DNA of 64,000 nt from Albimonas pacifica. Its GTDB lineage: Bacteria > Pseudomonadota > Alphaproteobacteria > Rhodobacterales > Rhodobacteraceae. Location: assembly GCF_900113695.1 (NCBI RefSeq), contig NZ_FOQH01000005.1, positions 186,001 to 250,000 on the forward strand. Direction: 5' to 3'. The notes under the pieces are model-generated. The model searched no databases, had not been told where the DNA came from, and saw only the letters and a program-made list of their open reading frames with translations. Positions 10,400 to 63,975 of this stretch are shown here, one piece after another. The translations under genes and the position numbers were made by a program. Positions within the stretch are counted from its first letter, which is position 1. Every line of letters begins with the position of its first letter.

Positions 10400-10532
10400 G
10401 TCCTCCCTGGGTTCGGCGGGGGAGGACGCGGCGGGAGGCGCGGGGGGCGGTCCCGTCGCGACTCCCTCCGCCGGCACGATCCGGATCAGGTTCGAAGGGT
10501 GCGTCTCAGCCCCGCGGGGGCGCCCCTGTCGC
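10400..10532 (-). promoter_or_regulatory. TPP riboswitch with SD-sequestering expression platform
   Basis: Reading on the minus strand from 10532: P1 arm GCGAC, GGGGCGC, the invariant CTGAGA (10509-10504), ACCCTTCGAACCTGATC, then GGATCGTGCCGGCGGAGGGA and the closing GTCGC (10462-10458). This is a complete THI-box aptamer. Downstream, GTCCTCCC (10427-10420) can pair perfectly with GGGAGGAC (10407-10400), which contains the thiM Shine-Dalgarno, so TPP binding probably blocks translation. The aptamer call is direct; the OFF mechanism is inferred. Confidence 0.93.
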
Positions 10533-10582
10533 GTCTGCGCGGACGCTAGACCGCGGCTGCGGGCCGTTGCAAGGGGCGCCGC

Positions 10583-13854: not shown

Positions 13855-14751
13855 TCAGATCCCGGCGTCAGGGAGCATCAGCGCCAGCGCGATCGGGATG
13901 GTCAGCACCGCCACCAGGGTCGAGACGACGACGGCGCCGGCCACCCGCTCGGGCTCGGCGGCGTAGCGCTCGGCCATCAGGTAGGAGGTGACGGCGATCG
14001 GCATGATCATCTGCAGGATCAGCGCATGGGTCCCCGACAGGTCCACCCCCAGCGCCCAGGCGCCGAGCCAGCCGGCCGCCCCGCAGACCGCAATGCGCAG
14101 CAGCGAGAGCACGATCGCCGGCCCCACGCCGCTGACGGTCAGCCGCGCGACCGAGACGCCGAGCGTGACCAGCATCAGCGGGATCGCCATCTGCCCCGCA
14201 AGCTCGAGCGAGCGCATCAGGAACAGGGGCAGCTCCCAGCCGGTCAGGGCGAAGACGAGGCCCAGCGCCGCGCCGTAGAAGATCGGCTGCTTGGCGGCCT
14301 CCTTCGGCGAGCCGCCGCCGGAGACGATCCAGACCCCCGCCGTGAAGCTCAGGCAGGCCATCACCGCGAAGATCACCGCGGCCTGCGCGAGGCCGGTCTC
14401 GCCGAAGGCGAACATGGCGACGGGGATGCCGACGTTGCCGGTGTTGCCGAAGGTCAGCGGCGCGAGCCAGGTGCGCGTCGACAGGCCCGCGGCGCGCAGC
14501 ATCGCCCACAGGCCAAGGCCCGCGGCCAGGTAGGCGATCAGCGAGGCGCCGGCGAGGCGGGCGAAGGCGTCGGGATCGAGCTCGGCCTTGGCGAGCGCGG
14601 TGAAGAGCAGCGCGGGCACCGAGATCGAGAAGCTCATCCGGGTGACGAAATCGACGCGGTAGTCGTGCCCGGCCTTCACCCATCCGAAGCCCACGAGGCC
14701 CAGCAGGAACACCGGGGCCACGATCTCGAGCACCTGGATTGCGATGTCCAT
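13855..14751 (-). CDS. AEC family transporter (auxin efflux carrier-like)
   Basis: About 298 aa of almost continuous membrane segments (some ten) in two halves, with GNTGNVGIPVAMFAFGE in the middle and the C-terminal QMIMPIAVTSYLMAERYAAEPERVAGAVVVSTLVAV typical of the AEC/MdcF family. Substrates of bacterial members are usually small organic acids; here it is not known. Start at 14751 (MDIAIQVLEIVAPVFLLG); the longer open frame upstream is not membrane-like. Confidence 0.9.
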   Translation of the reverse strand: MDIAIQVLEIVAPVFLLGLVGFGWVKAGHDYRVDFVTRMSFSISVPALLFTALAKAELDPDAFARLAGASLIAYLAAGLGLWAMLRAAGLSTRTWLAPLTFGNTGNVGIPVAMFAFGETGLAQAAVIFAVMACLSFTAGVWIVSGGGSPKEAAKQPIFYGAALGLVFALTGWELPLFLMRSLELAGQMAIPLMLVTLGVSVARLTVSGVGPAIVLSLLRIAVCGAAGWLGAWALGVDLSGTHALILQMIMPIAVTSYLMAERYAAEPERVAGAVVVSTLVAVLTIPIALALMLPDAGI

Positions 14752-14929
14752 CGGCGGAATGCTCCCTCGTCCAGGCCGGCGGCGCGCTCCAGGCGGGCGC
14801 TGGAGCCGTCGTCGGGGGCGTGAATCCGCGGTAGCACGCGCGGGCGCGGGCGTCGATGCGCGCGCCCCGCGGGATGTTGCGTTGCGGCGCCGCTCTGGAC
14901 AGGCCGTGAACGATTTCCTAGGTTTCGGG

Positions 14930-15316
14930 ATGGACAATCACGCCCAAGAGACTCGCAAGACGCCGGGGACGCGCATGGCCCACAGCCTCATGCATCGCGA
15001 AGCCAAGTTCCGCATCGGGCAGGTGGTGCGCCATCGCATCCACCCTTTCCGCGGCGTGGTCTTCGACGTGGATCCCGAGTTCGCGAACACCGAGGAGTGG
15101 TGGCAGGCGATCCCGGAGGAGAGCCGCCCGATCAAGGACCAGCCCTTCTACCACCTGCTGGCCGAGAACGAGACGAGCTACTACCACGCCTACGTCTCCG
15201 AGCAGAACCTGCTGCCTGACGACACCGGCGACCCGGTGGAGCATCCGCAGGTCCACGAGCTGTTCGGCGAGCTCGACGGCGGCCAGTACGAGATCGCCTC
15301 GATCCAGACCCACTGA
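14930..15316 (+). CDS. hspQ: Heat shock protein HspQ
   Basis: Hemimethylated-DNA-binding-like small protein (YccV/HspQ family) that acts as a Lon specificity factor in enterobacteria. The core reads AKFRIGQVVRHRIHPFRGVVFDVDPEFANTEEWW, then DQPFYHLLAENE and AYVSEQNLLPDDTG. As annotated it has 128 aa; later ATGs at 14975 (113 aa) or 14990 (108 aa) would match the family length better, and no clear ribosome site decides. A terminator follows. Confidence 0.9.
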   Translation: MDNHAQETRKTPGTRMAHSLMHREAKFRIGQVVRHRIHPFRGVVFDVDPEFANTEEWWQAIPEESRPIKDQPFYHLLAENETSYYHAYVSEQNLLPDDTGDPVEHPQVHELFGELDGGQYEIASIQTH

Positions 15317-15352
15317 CCGATCCGCGCCTCGGCGACGGGGTCGACAGGATGC

Positions 15353-15390
15353 AGCGCCCCCGACCCCCCGGTCCGGGGGCGCTTTCGTCT
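15353..15390 (+). terminator. Intrinsic terminator of hspQ
   Basis: AGCGCCCCCG (15353-15362) pairs with CGGGGGCGCT (15374-15383), followed by TTCGTCTT. It is 36 bp past the hspQ stop. Confidence 0.8.
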
Positions 15391-15494
15391 TGCCGCCCAG
15401 AGCATCGCCACCGCCATCGCTCCGCCGACGGTCCAACCGATGCCCCGCCCGCCGATCGCGCGCCCGCGACGCCTGCCGCGTGGCCCCGCCGGAA

Positions 15495-15776
15495 GCGCCT
15501 GTTCTCCGGAGCCGTCTCTCGCGGATGCCGACCAGAGCGACTCGCCCCCTCCGGTCAAGGATCGCGAAGCGACCCCGCGGAGCGGGGCTCGTCCTTGACC
15601 GGAGGGGGCGAGTCGCTCAGGCATCGCAAGCGAGAGACGGATCCGGAGGACAGGCGCGGGCGCATTGTTCTTGGGTGAGTCAGGAGCCCGCCGGAGGCTC
15701 CCTCCTCCCCAATCCGTCGCGACCTGTCCGCAGGCGCCCCGCAGCCAAGCCCGCCCGCAGGGCGCCTGTAGACCGC
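15495..15776 (+). repeat. Palindromic repeat element, copy 1 (282 bp)
   Basis: The left 163 bp (15495-15657) is a long interrupted palindrome. Its inner arms are 27 bp and perfect (15535-15561 with 15592-15618, starting GAGCGACTCGCC), around a loop that has its own small hairpin (CCCCGC GGA GCGGGG). The outer arms are imperfect and begin GCGCCTGT/CAGGCGC. A 119-bp tail follows, with TTCTTGGGTGAGTC, a GGAGCC/GGCTCC hairpin and AAGCCCGCCCGCAGGGCGCCTG. An inverted second copy of equal length lies at 62878-63159, with compensating changes in the arms. It sits between convergent hspQ and the dipeptidase gene. No coding capacity seen; identity unknown. Confidence 0.85.
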
Positions 15777-15820
15777 CCGCGCCCGCAAGGGCGCGATCGC
15801 TCTCGTCCCCGCCGGTCGCC

Positions 15821-16882
15821 TCAGGCGCCCCAGGTCGCCCGCAGCACCCGGGTCCAGTTCTTCCAGCACAGCTTCTCGAGCAGCTCGCCCCCCATCCCCG
15901 CCGCTTCCAGCGCCTCGCGCAGCGCGGGCAGGCCGGCGGCGTCGCGGATCGGGGAGGGGATGCGGGCCCCGTCGAAGTCGGAACCGAGGCCGACGCGGTC
16001 CTCGCCCACCCGCTCCACCAGGTAGGCGAAGTGGGCGATCAGGGGGTCGAGCGTCTCCATCTCAGCCATCCGCCCGTCGGGGCGCAGGAAGCCGGTTGCG
16101 AGGTTCACGCCCACCATCCCGTCGCGTTCGCGGATCGCGTCGAGCTGGCGGTCGGTGAGGTTGCGCGCGTGGGGGCAGATCGCGTGGGCGTTGGAGTGGG
16201 TGGCGACGAGCGGCTTGCTCGAGACCTCGGCCACGTCCCAGAAGCCGGTCTCGGTGATGTGGGACAGGTCGATCATGATCCCGCGCCGGTCGCACTCGCG
16301 CACCAGTTCCCGGCCGAGCTCGGTCAGGCCCGGGCCGGTGTCGGGCGTAGACGGGAAGCGGAACGGCGCGCCGTGGGCGAAGATGTTGTTGCGGCTCCAT
16401 ACCGGCCCCAGCGAGCGCAGGCCCGCGGCCTCGAGCACGTCGAGCACGCGCAGCTCGGGGTCGATCGCCTCGGCCCCCTCGATGTGCAGGATCGCGGCGA
16501 CGCGGCCTTCGGCGAGGCAGGTCTCGATCTCGGCGGCGGTCCGCACCACGCTCAGGGCGCCGCGGGCCTGCAGGCGCAGCAGGATGCCGGCCTCGGCCAT
16601 CGTGATCTCCAGCGCGCGGGAGCGGGGAAGGTCGTCGGGCAGGGGGACGGAGTAGCCGTTGGGGTCGTCGTCGCGCCCGAAGCCCATCGAGAAGTCGTCG
16701 TTGGGCGCGAAGCAGGCGAAGAAGCCGCCGCCGAGCCCCCCCGCCTGGATCCGGGGCAGGTCGAGATGGCCGCCGCAGCCCTCGATGAACAGGTCCTCCG
16801 GCGACTGGCCGCCCTCCTCCGCGCGCCAGAGCTTCAGAAGCACGTCGTTGTGGCCGTCGAAGACGGGAGGGGTGGCGGACAT
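15821..16882 (-). CDS. Membrane dipeptidase (peptidase M19 family)
   Basis: A 353-aa zinc dipeptidase of the renal dipeptidase family. Metal-ligand motifs are visible: FDGHNDVLLK near residue 10, ILHIEGAEAID (bridging Glu), MIDLSHITETGFWDV, VATHSNAHAICPHARNLTD and GLGSDFDGARIP. There is no signal peptide, as usual for bacterial members, so it is probably cytoplasmic and cleaves dipeptides. Start at 16882 (MSATPPVFDGHND). The gene ends 44 bp from repeat copy 1. It is followed upstream by an MFS transporter gene on the same strand. Confidence 0.93.
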   Translation of the reverse strand: MSATPPVFDGHNDVLLKLWRAEEGGQSPEDLFIEGCGGHLDLPRIQAGGLGGGFFACFAPNDDFSMGFGRDDDPNGYSVPLPDDLPRSRALEITMAEAGILLRLQARGALSVVRTAAEIETCLAEGRVAAILHIEGAEAIDPELRVLDVLEAAGLRSLGPVWSRNNIFAHGAPFRFPSTPDTGPGLTELGRELVRECDRRGIMIDLSHITETGFWDVAEVSSKPLVATHSNAHAICPHARNLTDRQLDAIRERDGMVGVNLATGFLRPDGRMAEMETLDPLIAHFAYLVERVGEDRVGLGSDFDGARIPSPIRDAAGLPALREALEAAGMGGELLEKLCWKNWTRVLRATWGA

Positions 16883-16962
16883 GGAGGGCTCCTCGGGAGG
16901 GGGGCGCGCGGACCTGCGCGGGGGGAGCCTAGGGCGGAACGCAGGCGGTGGAAACCGCGCCG

Positions 16963-55029: not shown

Positions 55030-56355
55030 TCAGGCCAGCAGGGCCATCGGGTTCTCGAGGTTGTTTTTCACAGCCTCGAGGAACTGGGCGCCCAGCGCGC
55101 CGTCGATCACCCGGTGGTCGACCGAGAGGGTCACGGACATCACCGTGGCCACCTTGATCTCCCCGTCCGCGCCCACGATCGGCTTCTTCAGGCCGGCGCC
55201 GACCGCGAGGATCGAACCATGCGGCGGGTTGATCACCGCGTCGAAGTTCTCGATCCCGTACATGCCGAGGTTGGAGATCGCGAAGCTCCCGCCCTGGTAT
55301 TCCTGGGGCTGAAGCTTGCGGTCGCGGGCCTTGCCGGCCAGCGTCTTCATCTCCCCCGACAGGGCCGAGAGCGACTTGGTGTCGGCCGAGCGCAGCACCG
55401 GCGTGATCAGGCCGCCCTCGATGGCGACCGCCACGGCGACGTCCGCGCGCGAGAACTTAAGGATCCGGTCGCCGGCCCAGACGGCGTTGCAGTCGGGCAC
55501 CTGGATCAGGGCCGCCGCGCAGGCCTTGATGACGAAGTCGTTGACCGAGAGCTTCACGCCGCGCTTTTCCAGCGCCCCGTTCAGCTCCGCCCGGAAGGCC
55601 ATCAGCGCGTCCAGCTCGATGTCGCGCCGCAGGTAGAAATGCGGGATCGTCGACTTCGCCTCGCTGAGGCGCGCGGCGATGGTGCGGCGCATCCCGTCGA
55701 GCTTCACCTCCTCGAACTCCACGTCCGTGTAGAGCTTCTTGACCGCATCCGCGCTGGCCGGCTCGGCCTTCGCGACCGGCGCGGGGGCGGCCTTCTCCTC
55801 GGACTTCGCGGCGGGTGCAGCCGCCTCTGGCCTGGCGCTCTCGACGTCGGCCTTCACGATCCGGCCCTTGGGTCCGGAGCCCTTGACCTTTGCGAGGTCC
55901 AGCCCCTTCTCCTTCGCGATCCGCCGCGCGAGCGGCGAGGCGAAGACCCGCTCGCCGTCCGCAGTCTCGGGCGCGGGCGGGGCAGGGGTCTCGGCGGTCT
56001 TGGGCTCAGGCGCGGCGGGGCCGGCCGAGGGTTTCTCGGCGTCGCTCTCGGCCGGCGCAGGCTTCGCCTCGGGCTTGGCCGAAGCGGCCTCGTCGGCGGC
56101 CGAGGCGTCCTCGCCTTCCTCGAGCAGGACGGCGATGGGGGTGTTCACCTTCACCCCCTCGGTCCCTTCGGCGACCAGCAGCTTGCCGATCACGCCATCG
56201 TCGACGGCCTCGAACTCCATCGTGGCCTTGTCGGTCTCGATCTCGGCCAGGATGTCGCCGGAGGAGACCTTGTCCCCCTCCTTGACCGCCCACTTGGCCA
56301 GCGTGCCTTCCTCCATCGTGGGGGAAAGCGCGGGCATCAGGATCTGGATGGACAT
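55030..56355 (-). CDS. pdhC: Pyruvate dehydrogenase E2, dihydrolipoamide acetyltransferase
   Basis: Core of the PDH complex, 441 aa. One N-terminal lipoyl domain (lipoyl Lys in [14 protein letters not shown]), a long Ala/Pro/Glu linker, the E1/E3-binding domain ([33 protein letters not shown]) and the catalytic domain ending in [15 protein letters not shown]. Its lipoyl domain is nearly identical to that of the adjacent E1 beta gene. Last gene of pdhA-B-C. Confidence 0.97.
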
Positions 56356-56367
56356 CTCCCTCCCCCC

Positions 56368-57795
56368 TCAGCGATAGCAGACGGCCTTGGCGGCCTCGAC
56401 CACCTCGGCGGTCGTGACCAGCGCATGGCGCTCGAGATTGGCGGCGTAGGGCATCGGCACGTCCTTGCCGGTGCAGTTCAGGACCGGCGCGTCGAGATAG
56501 TCGAACGCCTTCGTCATCAGCGTCGCCGAGAGGTGGTTGCCGATGGAGGCCACCGGCCAGCCCTCTTCGATCGTCACGCAGCGGTTGGTCTTCATCACCG
56601 ACTTCACCACCGTGTCGGTGTCCATCGGACGCAGGCAGCGCAGGTCGATGACCTCGGCCTCGATCCCCTCGGCGGCGAGCGCCTCGGCGGCTTCCAGCGC
56701 ATAGGTCATGCCGATGCCGAAGCTGACCAGGGTCACGTCCGTCCCCTGGCGCCAGATCCGGGCCTTGCCCAGCGGGATCGTCAAATCCTCGACGTCGGGC
56801 ACGTCGAAGGACCGCCCGTAGAGGATCTCGTTCTCCAGGAACACCACCGGGTTGGGGTCGCGGATCGCGCTTTTCAGCAGGCCCTTGGCGTCGGCGGCCG
56901 AGTAGGGCTGCACGACCTTCAGGCCGGGGATCTGCGCATACCAGGCGGCGTAGTCCTGGGAGTGCTGCGCGCCGACGCGCGCCGCGGCGCCGTTGGGTCC
57001 GCGGAACACGATCGGGCAGCCCATCTGCCCGCCGGACATGTAAAGCGTCTTCGCCGCCGAGTTGATGATCTGGTCGATCGCCTGCATGGCGAAGTTGAAG
57101 GTCATGAACTCGACGATGGGCTTCAACCCGGCGAAGGCCGCGCCGACGCCGAGACCGGCGAAGCCGTGCTCGGTGATCGGCGTGTCGATCACCCGCTTGC
57201 CGCCGAACTCGTCCAGCAGGCCCTGGGTGATCTTGTAGGCGCCCTGGTACTCGGCCACCTCCTCGCCCATCACGAAGACGTCGCCGTCGCGGCGCATCTC
57301 CTCGGCCATCGCATCCCGCAGCGCTTCGCGCACGGTCTGCTTCTTCATCTTGGCGTCCTCGGGCCAGTCGAGCTCCAGCTCGGCCATCGGCGCGCCGGGC
57401 TTGGCCGAGGCGGGGACGGTCCCGTGCGGCATCTCCCTGGCGGCGGCGACCGCGTCGGACTTGCCCTTGGCGGCGTCCTGCGCGCTCTCGGCCTCGCCGT
57501 CGTCGGCTTCGGCCTTCGGCTCGGCGGCCGCGTCGGCGGCGGAGGCGTCCTCGCCCTCCTCCAGCAGCACCGCGATGGGCGTGTTCACCTTCACGCCCTC
57601 CGTGCCTTCCTCGATCAGGATCTTCCCGATCACGCCTTCATCGACGGCCTCGAACTCCATCGTGGCCTTGTCGGTCTCGATCTCCGCGAGGATGTCGCCG
57701 GAGGAGACCTTGTCCCCCTCCTTGACGTTCCATTTCGACAGCGTGCCCTCCTCCATGGTGGGGGAGAGCGCGGGCATCAGAATCTGAACGGCCAT
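56368..57795 (-). CDS. pdhB: Pyruvate dehydrogenase E1 beta with N-terminal lipoyl domain
   Basis: A 475-aa fusion: lipoyl domain (residues 1-78, [14 protein letters not shown]), an Ala/Glu-rich linker, then the E1 beta transketolase-like domain ([90 protein letters not shown]). The lipoyl fusion on E1 beta is typical of alphaproteobacteria. 12 bp separate it from pdhA and pdhC. Confidence 0.97.
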
Positions 57796-57807
57796 TCGTC
57801 CCCCTCC

Positions 57808-61905: not shown

Positions 61906-62799
61906 TCACATGCGGTCGTCGGGCGCGGCCTTCGGGCCCGGGACGGGCGCGGCCGCGGCCCTGTCCTCGGCCCGGATCTCGTCCCAGATCGCGTCCATCT
62001 CGGCGAGATCCGAGTCCTCCGGCCGCTTGCCCTTCGCGGCGAGCCGCCGCTCCACCTCCCGGAACCGGCGTTCGAACTTGGCGTTGGTGCGCCGGATCGC
62101 ATGTTCCGGCTCGACCTTGAGATGGCGGGCGAGGTCCGCCAGCACGAAGGCGAGGTCGCCGAACTCAGCCTCCACCTCGTCGGCGGTCAGCCGGTCGCGG
62201 GCCTCGGCGAGCTCGCCCGCCTCCTCGACCACCTTGGCGATGACGTCGGAGGCGTCGGGCCAGTCGAAGCCCACCCGCGCCGCCCGCGCCTGCAGCTTCA
62301 CCGCCCGCGTCAGCCCCGGCAGCCCCGTCGCCACCCCGTCGAGCGCCGAGGCCGCGGCCTCGACCTTTCCCTTCCCCGCCCGCTCGGCCGCCTTCATCCG
62401 CTCCCAGTCGCCGGGGCGCAGCTCGCGCACCACGCCGTCCTCGTCGCCGAAGACGTGGGGGTGGCGGCGGAGCATCTTGTCGGCGACGGCGCGGGCGACG
62501 TCGTCGAAATCGAACAGCCCCGCCTCCTGCGCCATCTGCGCGTGGTAGACGACCTGCAGCAGCAGGTCGCCGAGCTCGTCCTTCAGGTCGGCCATGTCGC
62601 CGCGCTCGATGGCGTCGGCGACCTCGTAGGCCTCTTCGACGGTATACTTGGCGATGGACGCGAAATCCTGGTCGCGGTCCCAGGGGCAGCCGTCGGGGGC
62701 GCGGAGGCGGCGCATGATCTCGCGCAGGCGGGGCAGGGCGCCGGAGGCATCGCGGACCAGCGCGTCGGAAGCCTCGCGGGAGGGGGCGTCGGTCATCAT
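61906..62799 (-). CDS. mazG: Nucleoside triphosphate pyrophosphohydrolase MazG
   Basis: Hydrolyses NTPs and dNTPs to the monophosphates, cleansing aberrant nucleotides; 297 aa with two MazG repeats. First: LREIMRRLRAPDGCPWDRDQDFASIAKYTVEEAYEVADAIERGDMADLKDELGDLLLQVVYHAQMAQE; second: VIAKVVEEAGELAEARD and VEAEFGDLAFVLADLARHL. The EExxE/ExxD metal motifs are present in both. Lies downstream of repeat copy 2. Confidence 0.95.
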   Translation of the reverse strand: MMTDAPSREASDALVRDASGALPRLREIMRRLRAPDGCPWDRDQDFASIAKYTVEEAYEVADAIERGDMADLKDELGDLLLQVVYHAQMAQEAGLFDFDDVARAVADKMLRRHPHVFGDEDGVVRELRPGDWERMKAAERAGKGKVEAAASALDGVATGLPGLTRAVKLQARAARVGFDWPDASDVIAKVVEEAGELAEARDRLTADEVEAEFGDLAFVLADLARHLKVEPEHAIRRTNAKFERRFREVERRLAAKGKRPEDSDLAEMDAIWDEIRAEDRAAAAPVPGPKAAPDDRM

Positions 62800-62877
62800 G
62801 CGTCTCCGTCAGGGGCGGTCCCGGCCGGCCTAGCGCGGAGCGGCCGGCGCGGGCAAGGCGGCGGATCGCGGCGGGGA

Positions 62878-63159
62878 GCGGTCTGCAGGCGCCCTGCGGG
62901 CGGGCTTGGCCGGGTCGCGACCGGGGGGACGGGGGGGCGAAGGGCGGGGAGGGAGGAGCCGCCGGCGGGCTCCGGACTCACCCAAGAACAAGACGCCCGC
63001 GCCTGTCCTCCGGATCCGTCCATCGCGTCCGATGCCTGAGCGACTCGCCCGGCCCCGTCAAGGACAAGCCCCCTTCGGGGGTCGCTTCGCGATCCTTGAC
63101 GGGGCCGGGCGAGTCGCTCTGATCGGCATCCGCGATGGACGGCTCCGGAGAACAGGCGC
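62878..63159 (-). repeat. Palindromic repeat element, copy 2 (282 bp, inverted relative to copy 1)
   Basis: Same architecture as 15495-15776 but on the other strand. The palindrome is 62999-63159; the perfect 27-bp inner arms are 63038-63064 and 63093-63119, with loop hairpin CCCCC TTC GGGGG. The tail is 62878-62998. Relative to copy 1 the arm changes from CCCCCTCCGG to CCCGGCCCCG are matched on the opposite arm, so pairing is kept. It lies between mazG and rplY, away from coding sequence. Identity unknown. Confidence 0.85.
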
Positions 63160-63231
63160 TCCCCGGGGGCGCGTGGGGCACGGGGGGCCCGGGGCGCGCG
63201 TCGCGCGAGAAGGCGGGGGCGCCGCGGGGGA

Positions 63232-63251
63232 GAGTTGACAGCTGTCAACTC
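63232..63251. promoter_or_regulatory. Perfect 20-bp palindrome with FNR-type half-sites
   Basis: GAGTTGACAGCTGTCAACTC is a perfect palindrome containing TTGAC-N4-GTCAA, the spacing of FNR/FnrL-family boxes. It lies in the 549-bp gap between mazG and rplY, 98 bp past the rplY stop and 433 bp upstream of mazG, so its target gene is unclear. Confidence 0.5.
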
Positions 63252-63286
63252 GCGGGCGCGCGGGCGTCGGGAAAGGGGGCGCCACG

Positions 63287-63318
63287 AAAAACGCCCGCTC
63301 CTGGAGAGAAGCGGGCGT
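63287..63318 (-). terminator. Intrinsic terminator of rplY
   Basis: ACGCCCGCT (63291-63299) pairs with AGCGGGCGT (63310-63318); on the minus strand a TTTTT run follows. It starts 31 bp past the rplY stop. Confidence 0.88.
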
Positions 63319-63348
63319 CGGGTCGCGTCGGCGGGAGGCCGGCGAGGA

Positions 63349-63975
63349 TCACTCCTCGGCGGGAGCCTCCTCGGCCGCATCCTCCTCGGCCGCCTCGGAG
63401 GCGCGCAGGCCCGAGGGAGCGGAGATGTTGGCCAGCACGAAGTCGCGGTCGCGGATCACCGGGGTCACGCCCTTGGGCAGCTCGACGTCGGAGATGTGGA
63501 TCACGTCGCCGAAGCTCTTGCCCGTCAGGTCGACGGTGATGTGATCGGGGATCGAACCCGCGACCACGTTCAGCTCGACCTCGGAGCGCACCACGGTCAG
63601 CACGCCGCCCTTCTTCAGGCCCGGCGAGGCCTCCTGGTTCACGAAGTCGACGTGAACGAAGAGGTTCACGCGGCTCTTCTCCGTCAGGCGCAGGAAGTCC
63701 ACGTGGGTCGGCAGGTCGCGGACCACGTCGCGCTGCACGGCGCGGCAGATCACGCGGTTGTCCTGGCCGTCCACCTTCACGTTGAACAGCGTGGACAGGA
63801 AGCGCCCGGCCTTGAGCCGCTTGAGCAGCTCGTTGTGCTTGACGTTGATCGTGACGGGATCGATCCCGCCGCCGTAGATCACGCCGGGAACCAGCCCCTC
63901 GCGCCGCGCGGAACGGGCAGCCCCTTTGCCCGTGCCGGAGCGGGCGGTGGCCTCGAGAACCGGAAGGTCGGCCAT
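63349..63975 (-). CDS. rplY: 50S ribosomal protein L25 (Ctc/TL5 type)
   Basis: 5S-rRNA-binding protein, 208 aa, the long form with a C-terminal beta domain. Starts [37 protein letters not shown], then [43 protein letters not shown] and the second domain [49 protein letters not shown]. An acidic tail ends it ([15 protein letters not shown]). Start 63975 is used; four codons earlier there is another ATG. Confidence 0.97.

Follow-up and report, generated by a model that had tools for sequence, protein, structure and literature searches.

The occurrence of a 282-nt palindrome between two genes of Albimonas pacifica raises the question of whether its folded form is what is being kept and, if so, what the folded strand does. 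The element lies in the window, the whole stretch of 64,000 nt analysed here (G000:C36:186001-250000, from a genome of 6.02 Mb in 68 contigs, hereafter G000). An earlier note, made from the letters alone, had described a 163-nt hairpin with a conserved tail and had offered three roles for it, namely a structured RNA, a bidirectional terminator or a nonautonomous palindrome moved by a transposase. The hairpin and its perfect 27-bp inner arms were confirmed (Table 1), and the inverted copy elsewhere in the window is also 282 nt by count, with 27-bp inner arms of other sequence and with the described change of the loop hairpin from CCCCGC/GCGGGG to CCCCC/GGGGG. The length of the unit was as noted, but the unit is composite. 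The stretch most often common to copy pairs is a core of about 206 nt (-2 to about 206), from GCGCCTG to GGAGGCTCC, in a count over 120 sequences of which 16 were entered twice, and a further small repeat is added on the 3' side. RNA folding of the 282 nt gives -202 kcal/mol (z = -11.7), DNA folding of the 163-nt hairpin gives z = -14.9, and 0 of 200 shuffles equalled either value. The window copy occupies a convergent site. As had been claimed, the element has no ORF of its own, with predicted genes entering the 64 copies sampled by at most 90 nt, according to a purpose-built codon-model caller rather than an annotation.

Table 1. Coordinates of the element, its parts and its neighbours in the window
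Feature	Position	Strand	Evidence
Branched long hairpin, 163 nt, element core	15495..15657	+	folding, covariation
Word A (CCTGTTCTC) in 5' outer arm, then conserved CGGAGCC	15498..15506	+	
Left inner arm, perfect 27 bp	15535..15561	+	
Hypervariable part of left arm (A1 columns 51-58); partner about 15601-15608	15545..15552	+	
Mini-hairpin A, TCGC-GAA-GCGA, GNA loop	15562..15572	+	
Mini-hairpin B, CCCCGC-GGA-GCGGGG, then linker CTCG (copies: CYYG)	15573..15587	+	
Right inner arm	15592..15618	+	
Word A2, downstream repeat of A	15665..15673	+	
Conserved GGTGAGTC	15674..15681	+	
Small hairpin GGAGCC-CGCCGGA-GGCTCC, end of ~206-nt core	15683..15701	+	
Companion small repeat M3, CCAAGCCCGCCCGCAGGGCGCC + TGTAGACCGC	15745..15776	+	repeat search
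Second window copy (limits approximate)	62878..63159	-	
Neighbour gene, YccV-like (hemimethylated-DNA-binding) protein, 3' end toward element	14744..15316	+	
Neighbour gene, membrane dipeptidase (Peptidase_M19), start tentative, 3' end toward element	15821..16960	-	

Across the family, the outermost part is a stem with word A and a constant CGGAGCC, followed inwards by a TCGC..GATGCC stem, likewise constant and carrying an A-rich bulge, and then by a hypervariable inner stem. The tip is formed by a constant (C)AAGG/CCTTG collar, mini-hairpin A, mini-hairpin B and a C-Y-Y-G linker, and A2 and GGTGAGTC, frequently with CGGAAGC after them, stand 3' of the hairpin. The loop of mini-hairpin A is GNA in 58/60 Albimonas copies; among the other copies, with 12 short forms left aside, 28 were classified and 20 of them have GNA. 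GNA loops are stable in DNA, which the observed loop fits, yet GNA does not distinguish RNA from DNA. A second tip class, AAATCGCCGAGGGGCCCC..GGGGAGACGGCTATTT, occurs with the outer architecture unchanged in L143, L146, L149, L157, L187, L201 and L137.

The search for further copies proposed in the earlier note, run with DNA, covariance-model and profile methods, revealed a dispersed intergenic family, contrary to the absence of other copies that would have refuted the claim. In an own-genome DNA search with the window copy, the best 40 of 259 candidates were scored and all 40 matched, and an own-genome search with a copy of a second Albimonas (G001) as query also gave 40 matches. A covariance model, R1, built from 60 hairpins, returned at least 150 matches each in G000 and G001, strands possibly both counted, and at least 61 distinct places in G000 among the matches listed. 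Profile searches of contiguous stretches found 49 copies per 1.6 Mb of G000 and 15 per 0.4 Mb of G001, so that some 180 (about 184 by proportion) would be expected in the 6.0 Mb of G000. The copy load of G001 is similar to that of G000, and the congener G002 gave short or weak matches only. Beyond Albimonas, the counts are 19 distinct full-length places (E < 1e-11) plus two weaker ones in Mameliella sp. CS4 (G061), 13 copies in G022 (E up to 0.0031), three in G346 and six in G409. A strict family scan, in which scoring was limited to seven candidates per genome, gave matches in 21 of 394 genomes (G000 and G001 among them), which is a lower bound. In about 10 of these 21, only model positions about 43-123 were matched. 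They represent a short form (L186, L189, L190, L191, L194, L197 and others, about 1501-1680) in which a simple stem bears the collar and two mini-hairpins; a second hairpin, conserved and particular to this form, follows and ends in CTCTCAGCA, and the short form is perhaps a separate family. The small repeat AAGCCCGCCCGCAGGGCGCC, the 3' piece of the unit, has 108 exact copies in G000 and 97 in G001 and none in G002, G022 or G061. In Albimonas, M3 follows the element and M3-like sequence is often found 5' of the hairpin. At its places in the two Albimonas genomes, AAGCCCGCCCGCAGGGCGCC often stands directly behind stop codons and is similar to the element's 5' flank.

The covariation of the arms seen between the two window copies holds with more copies aligned. 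In 60 Albimonas hairpins, 99.2% of the cells of 70 pairs are paired, and 17 pairs contain 203 double-changed cells; in 24 hairpins from several genera, the corresponding figures are 94.2% of 60 pairs, with 232 double-changed cells in 35 pairs. Double changes as high as observed were reached in 0/500 shuffles of either alignment, although the shuffles ignore kinship, and a slid-partner control gave 36 to 46% paired. Between Albimonas copies, 0.47 of the sites of the hypervariable arm differ, compared with 0.075 for the rest of the 5' half, and 473/480 of the arm's cells are paired. Among ten Mameliella rows the corresponding differences are 0.56 for the arm and 0.14 for columns 3-36, and over all 20 non-Albimonas rows 298/340 arm cells pair.

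The earlier note held that such covariation means that the fold is kept. The fold is indeed kept, but covariation alone is no proof of this, because template switching also matches both arms. It could accordingly be argued that the fold is unselected and that template switching keeps the two halves of every palindrome in agreement; G-C to C-G flips make up many of the double changes (e.g. 29 to 27 at A1 columns 54-115), and the arms change in blocks, as expected from arm-onto-arm copying. However, the repair of palindromes is strand-symmetric and therefore cannot give a strand asymmetry, yet the A1 cells comprise 4047 Watson-Crick and 96 G-U pairs against 8 A-C, with 23 other and 26 gaps. Likewise, the + folds of 95 hairpins contain 323 G-U pairs and 14 one-by-one A-C mismatches and the - folds 121 and 153, respectively, the counting being not quite alike for the two kinds. 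Folding energy is lower for the + strand in 98/107 copies, with the same direction in all six groups (24/30, 29/30, 12/13, 10/10, 12/12 and 11/12), in a comparison to which fixed loops contribute and whose trials are not independent, as copies share ancestry. The constant joints and loops, moreover, remain constant. As a full account, template switching is already contradicted by the strand asymmetry and is highly improbable, but it may be how the arms change so fast. The proof that covariation could not give is supplied by the asymmetry: departures from regular pairing lie on one side (G-U instead of A-C), the better fold is that of the + strand, and thus single-strand folding of the + strand is under selection. 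Cis read-through was rejected as the source of the strand bias, which is equal across gene contexts (p = 0.72). The asymmetry does not tell RNA from single-stranded DNA, for in the same set of folds G-G and A-G mismatches, too, are preferred to C-C and C-T.

One way in which the + strand could act is as a transcribed, structured RNA, perhaps switching between A'-A and A'-A2 pairing. The order around the outer stem is A-A'-A2, then GGTGAGTC, and A2 tracks A across classes. The agreement of A2 with its own A is 7.05 of 8 places in 42 copies of several classes, compared with 4.67 (sd 0.21, maximum 5.67) when A2 was exchanged among copies 2000 times. Since A2 tracks its own A, the A'-A2 pairing also covaries, with pairing in 92.1% of cells and 24 double changes (0/500 shuffles), as would suit such an RNA. 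Nevertheless, pairing found no support as the reason why A2 equals A, for A2 words that differ from A pair with A' in 22/35 cases (0.63), and composition predicts 0.64. With deviant A2 pairing at chance, word identity of A and A2 may be conserved instead of pairing. A structured RNA would also account for the tolerance of G-U but not A-C, for the covariation of 35/60 pairs across genera and for the recurrence of some sites between genera. Against it are the two window copies, which lack a promoter-like site, the ~180 copies, which are many for a regulator, and the orientations relative to genes, with sense and antisense about equal in Albimonas (21, 17) and 14 antisense to 5 sense elsewhere. 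Overall, a structured RNA family is the main rival of the preferred reading and is somewhat unlikely.

The genomic context of the copies bears on the second proposed role. The 64 Albimonas copies comprise 20 convergent, 21 sense tandem, 18 antisense tandem and 5 divergent sites; divergent sites are rare, with 4 against 18 convergent among the complete copies (n=60, p = 0.004). Outside Albimonas, 48 of 52 loci were classified, as 28 convergent, 14 antisense, 5 sense and 1 divergent, and a gene end lies on the 3' side of the element in 42/48. No clear replication-strand preference was seen, by hand from the skew. The excess of convergent sites and of gene ends at the 3' side outside Albimonas is what a two-way terminator or insulator behind genes would predict, but the hairpin is without a T-run, there are 0 terminator-like sites in 15250-15900, and the second window copy has two weak 5-bp sites only. 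In addition, separate terminator-like sites stand between gene and element at 14/49 gene ends, compared with 7/300 random stretches, the strand asymmetry is equal across gene contexts, and Albimonas copies have no gene-orientation preference. Behind gltB, 29 of the 30 genera fetched gave no match to the element. The bidirectional terminator is thereby weakened, and a terminator or insulator role appears improbable.

The sharing of sites between genomes was also compared. For the 12 copies in G000:C32 1-400000, nine were found at the matching place in G001 (one by a single flank), one was absent and one probably absent, and the alignment gave no call for the remaining copy. Conversely, for 15 copies in a G001 segment, nine were shared with G000, two were absent and four were without call (alignments read by eye). 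Empty sites lie opposite L142, s0 86415, s1 106861 and s1 134587. At five sites flanked by the same two neighbours, copies recur in different genera (L170/L180; L019/L187; L157/L174/L314; L183/L189, full and short form; L194/L197). Copies at shared sites are no more alike than others, with ranks of 3/29, 31/38, 15/26, 7/26, 16/26 and 28/31 for six pairs, two of which share one flank only. gltB was found in 37 genomes, and in a comparison by genera its site carried a copy only in the genus of that copy, the other 29 having no match at E < 0.7. Since shared-site copies are not more alike and the gltB site is empty in 29/30 genera, the pattern suggests that preferred places are refilled, or that copies are homogenised, more than simple inheritance.

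Among the three roles first proposed, the nonautonomous mobile palindrome fits best. Quite possibly, the family is a nonautonomous mobile element of Rhodobacteraceae, whose + strand folds single-stranded, which depends on a putative non-Y1 enzyme encoded elsewhere and which has multiplied strongly in Albimonas. The one-sided pairing indicates that the + strand acts single-stranded. Mobility is suggested by the burst in one genus (49 copies per 1.6 Mb in G000, compared with 3-19 in G061, G022, G346 and G409), by near-identical copies at separate places (97% over 272 nt; L314 and L315 in G409, by eye), by the empty sites, including that behind gltB, and by independence of neighbours, the strand bias being the same in all gene contexts. 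Divergent sites being rare also fits. The + strand would fold most likely as DNA exposed at replication, and would be recognised by its constant joints, the GNA mini-hairpin and the A/A2 words; the putative enzyme would then copy the element into gaps behind gene ends, where copies would be tolerated. No sigma-70-like promoter was found in 15250-15900 or 62780-63420, and no upstream conservation is evident outside Albimonas, so the evidence leans to single-stranded DNA, although RNA pairing explains the tolerance of G-U at least as well as DNA does. Other observations sit less easily with a mobile element: only 4/64 Albimonas copies are partial, the whole hairpin being present in 60, which is few for a decaying repeat, and a kept function would also fit both the nine of 12 G000:C32 copies matched in G001 and the five sites recurring between genera.

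A further point against mobility is that searches for a mover among Y1 transposases, reverse transcriptases, attC boxes and recurrent neighbours yielded none. The mover part of the original proposal thus fared less well, in that the usual mover of such repeats, the Y1 (PF01797; REP/IS200-type) transposase, was absent from all 15 genomes searched (0/3 and 0/12), with 5/14 control genomes positive. Reverse transcriptase, which a retron or another reverse-transcribed element would need, was rejected as a common factor, with RVT_1 present in 5/10 genomes, borderline in G000 and not found in G001, G346, G242, G211 or G061. The attC boxes RYYYAAC and GTTRRRY occurred together in 0/80 hairpins on either strand, and a GTAG/GGAC-type tetranucleotide within 12 nt 5' of the hairpin foot in 0/60. 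MITEs have terminal inverted repeats, a target duplication and a matching transposase; here there was no clear target duplication, a 6-nt repeat lying near the ends, whose exact positions are putative, in 18/59 copies against a control of 0.175, and the transposase search covered the Y1 type. An autonomous partner as recurrent neighbour was also rejected; over 46 loci from genomes other than G000 and G001, any one ORF family was seen in two genomes at most, in a comparison in which 10 neighbours were given names. Plasmids gave no match to a Mameliella copy, and viral contigs gave a single 20-nt word match that is not an element.

The assertion that the element fits no known family stands with respect to Rfam, in which no element match was obtained at gathering score (TPP and tRNA only in the window, and below-threshold rows only in 5 and 13 loci), and nothing on the element was found in the literature searched. 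As far as these searches show, the family was previously uncatalogued. In kind it is an unusual variant among the dispersed palindromic repeats. REP/BIME repeats, which are moved by RAYT (Y1) transposases and have a GTAG-type foot, are likewise dispersed, intergenic, palindromic, structured as a single strand and present in many copies per genome, whereas the present element is much longer, branched and without either that foot or a Y1 transposase. RIME, ABC and Bru-RS are dispersed palindromes of Alphaproteobacteria, also intergenic and of about 100-300 bp; the hypervariable arms, the strand-specific fold and the A-A'-A2 arrangement of the element are not known from them. Integron attC sites share the keeping of structure above sequence and the folding of one strand (in part from PMC8632094), but the element lacks their paired boxes and lies outside cassette arrays. 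HRC-8-4, according to PMC8632094, is a structured motif similarly confined to Rhodobacterales. Unlike the element, it lies for the most part between cco operons and is similar to a terminator stem with a U run.

More broadly, and with some doubt, a new class of single-strand-folding element in Rhodobacteraceae may be proposed, with constant joints, copy-specific arms and an A/A'/A2 strand-exchange module beside GGTGAGTC, read by a putative structure-reading recombinase or RNA machinery. Dispersed palindrome families usually have a known transposase or give no indication that their fold is selected. In the present family, hundreds of natural variants in two genomes, together with relatives across genera, allow fixed bases to be separated from those needed for pairing only, on one strand. 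The missing enzyme or partner can in this way be sought directly, and strand-specific folding in a bacterial genome can be studied on a set of natural mutations. Elsewhere in the window, a TPP riboswitch lies at 10446-10537 (-), above gathering score, and a 300-nt direct repeat (56066-56365 and 57506-57805), 85% identical and 1440 nt apart, is probably within tandem similar genes.
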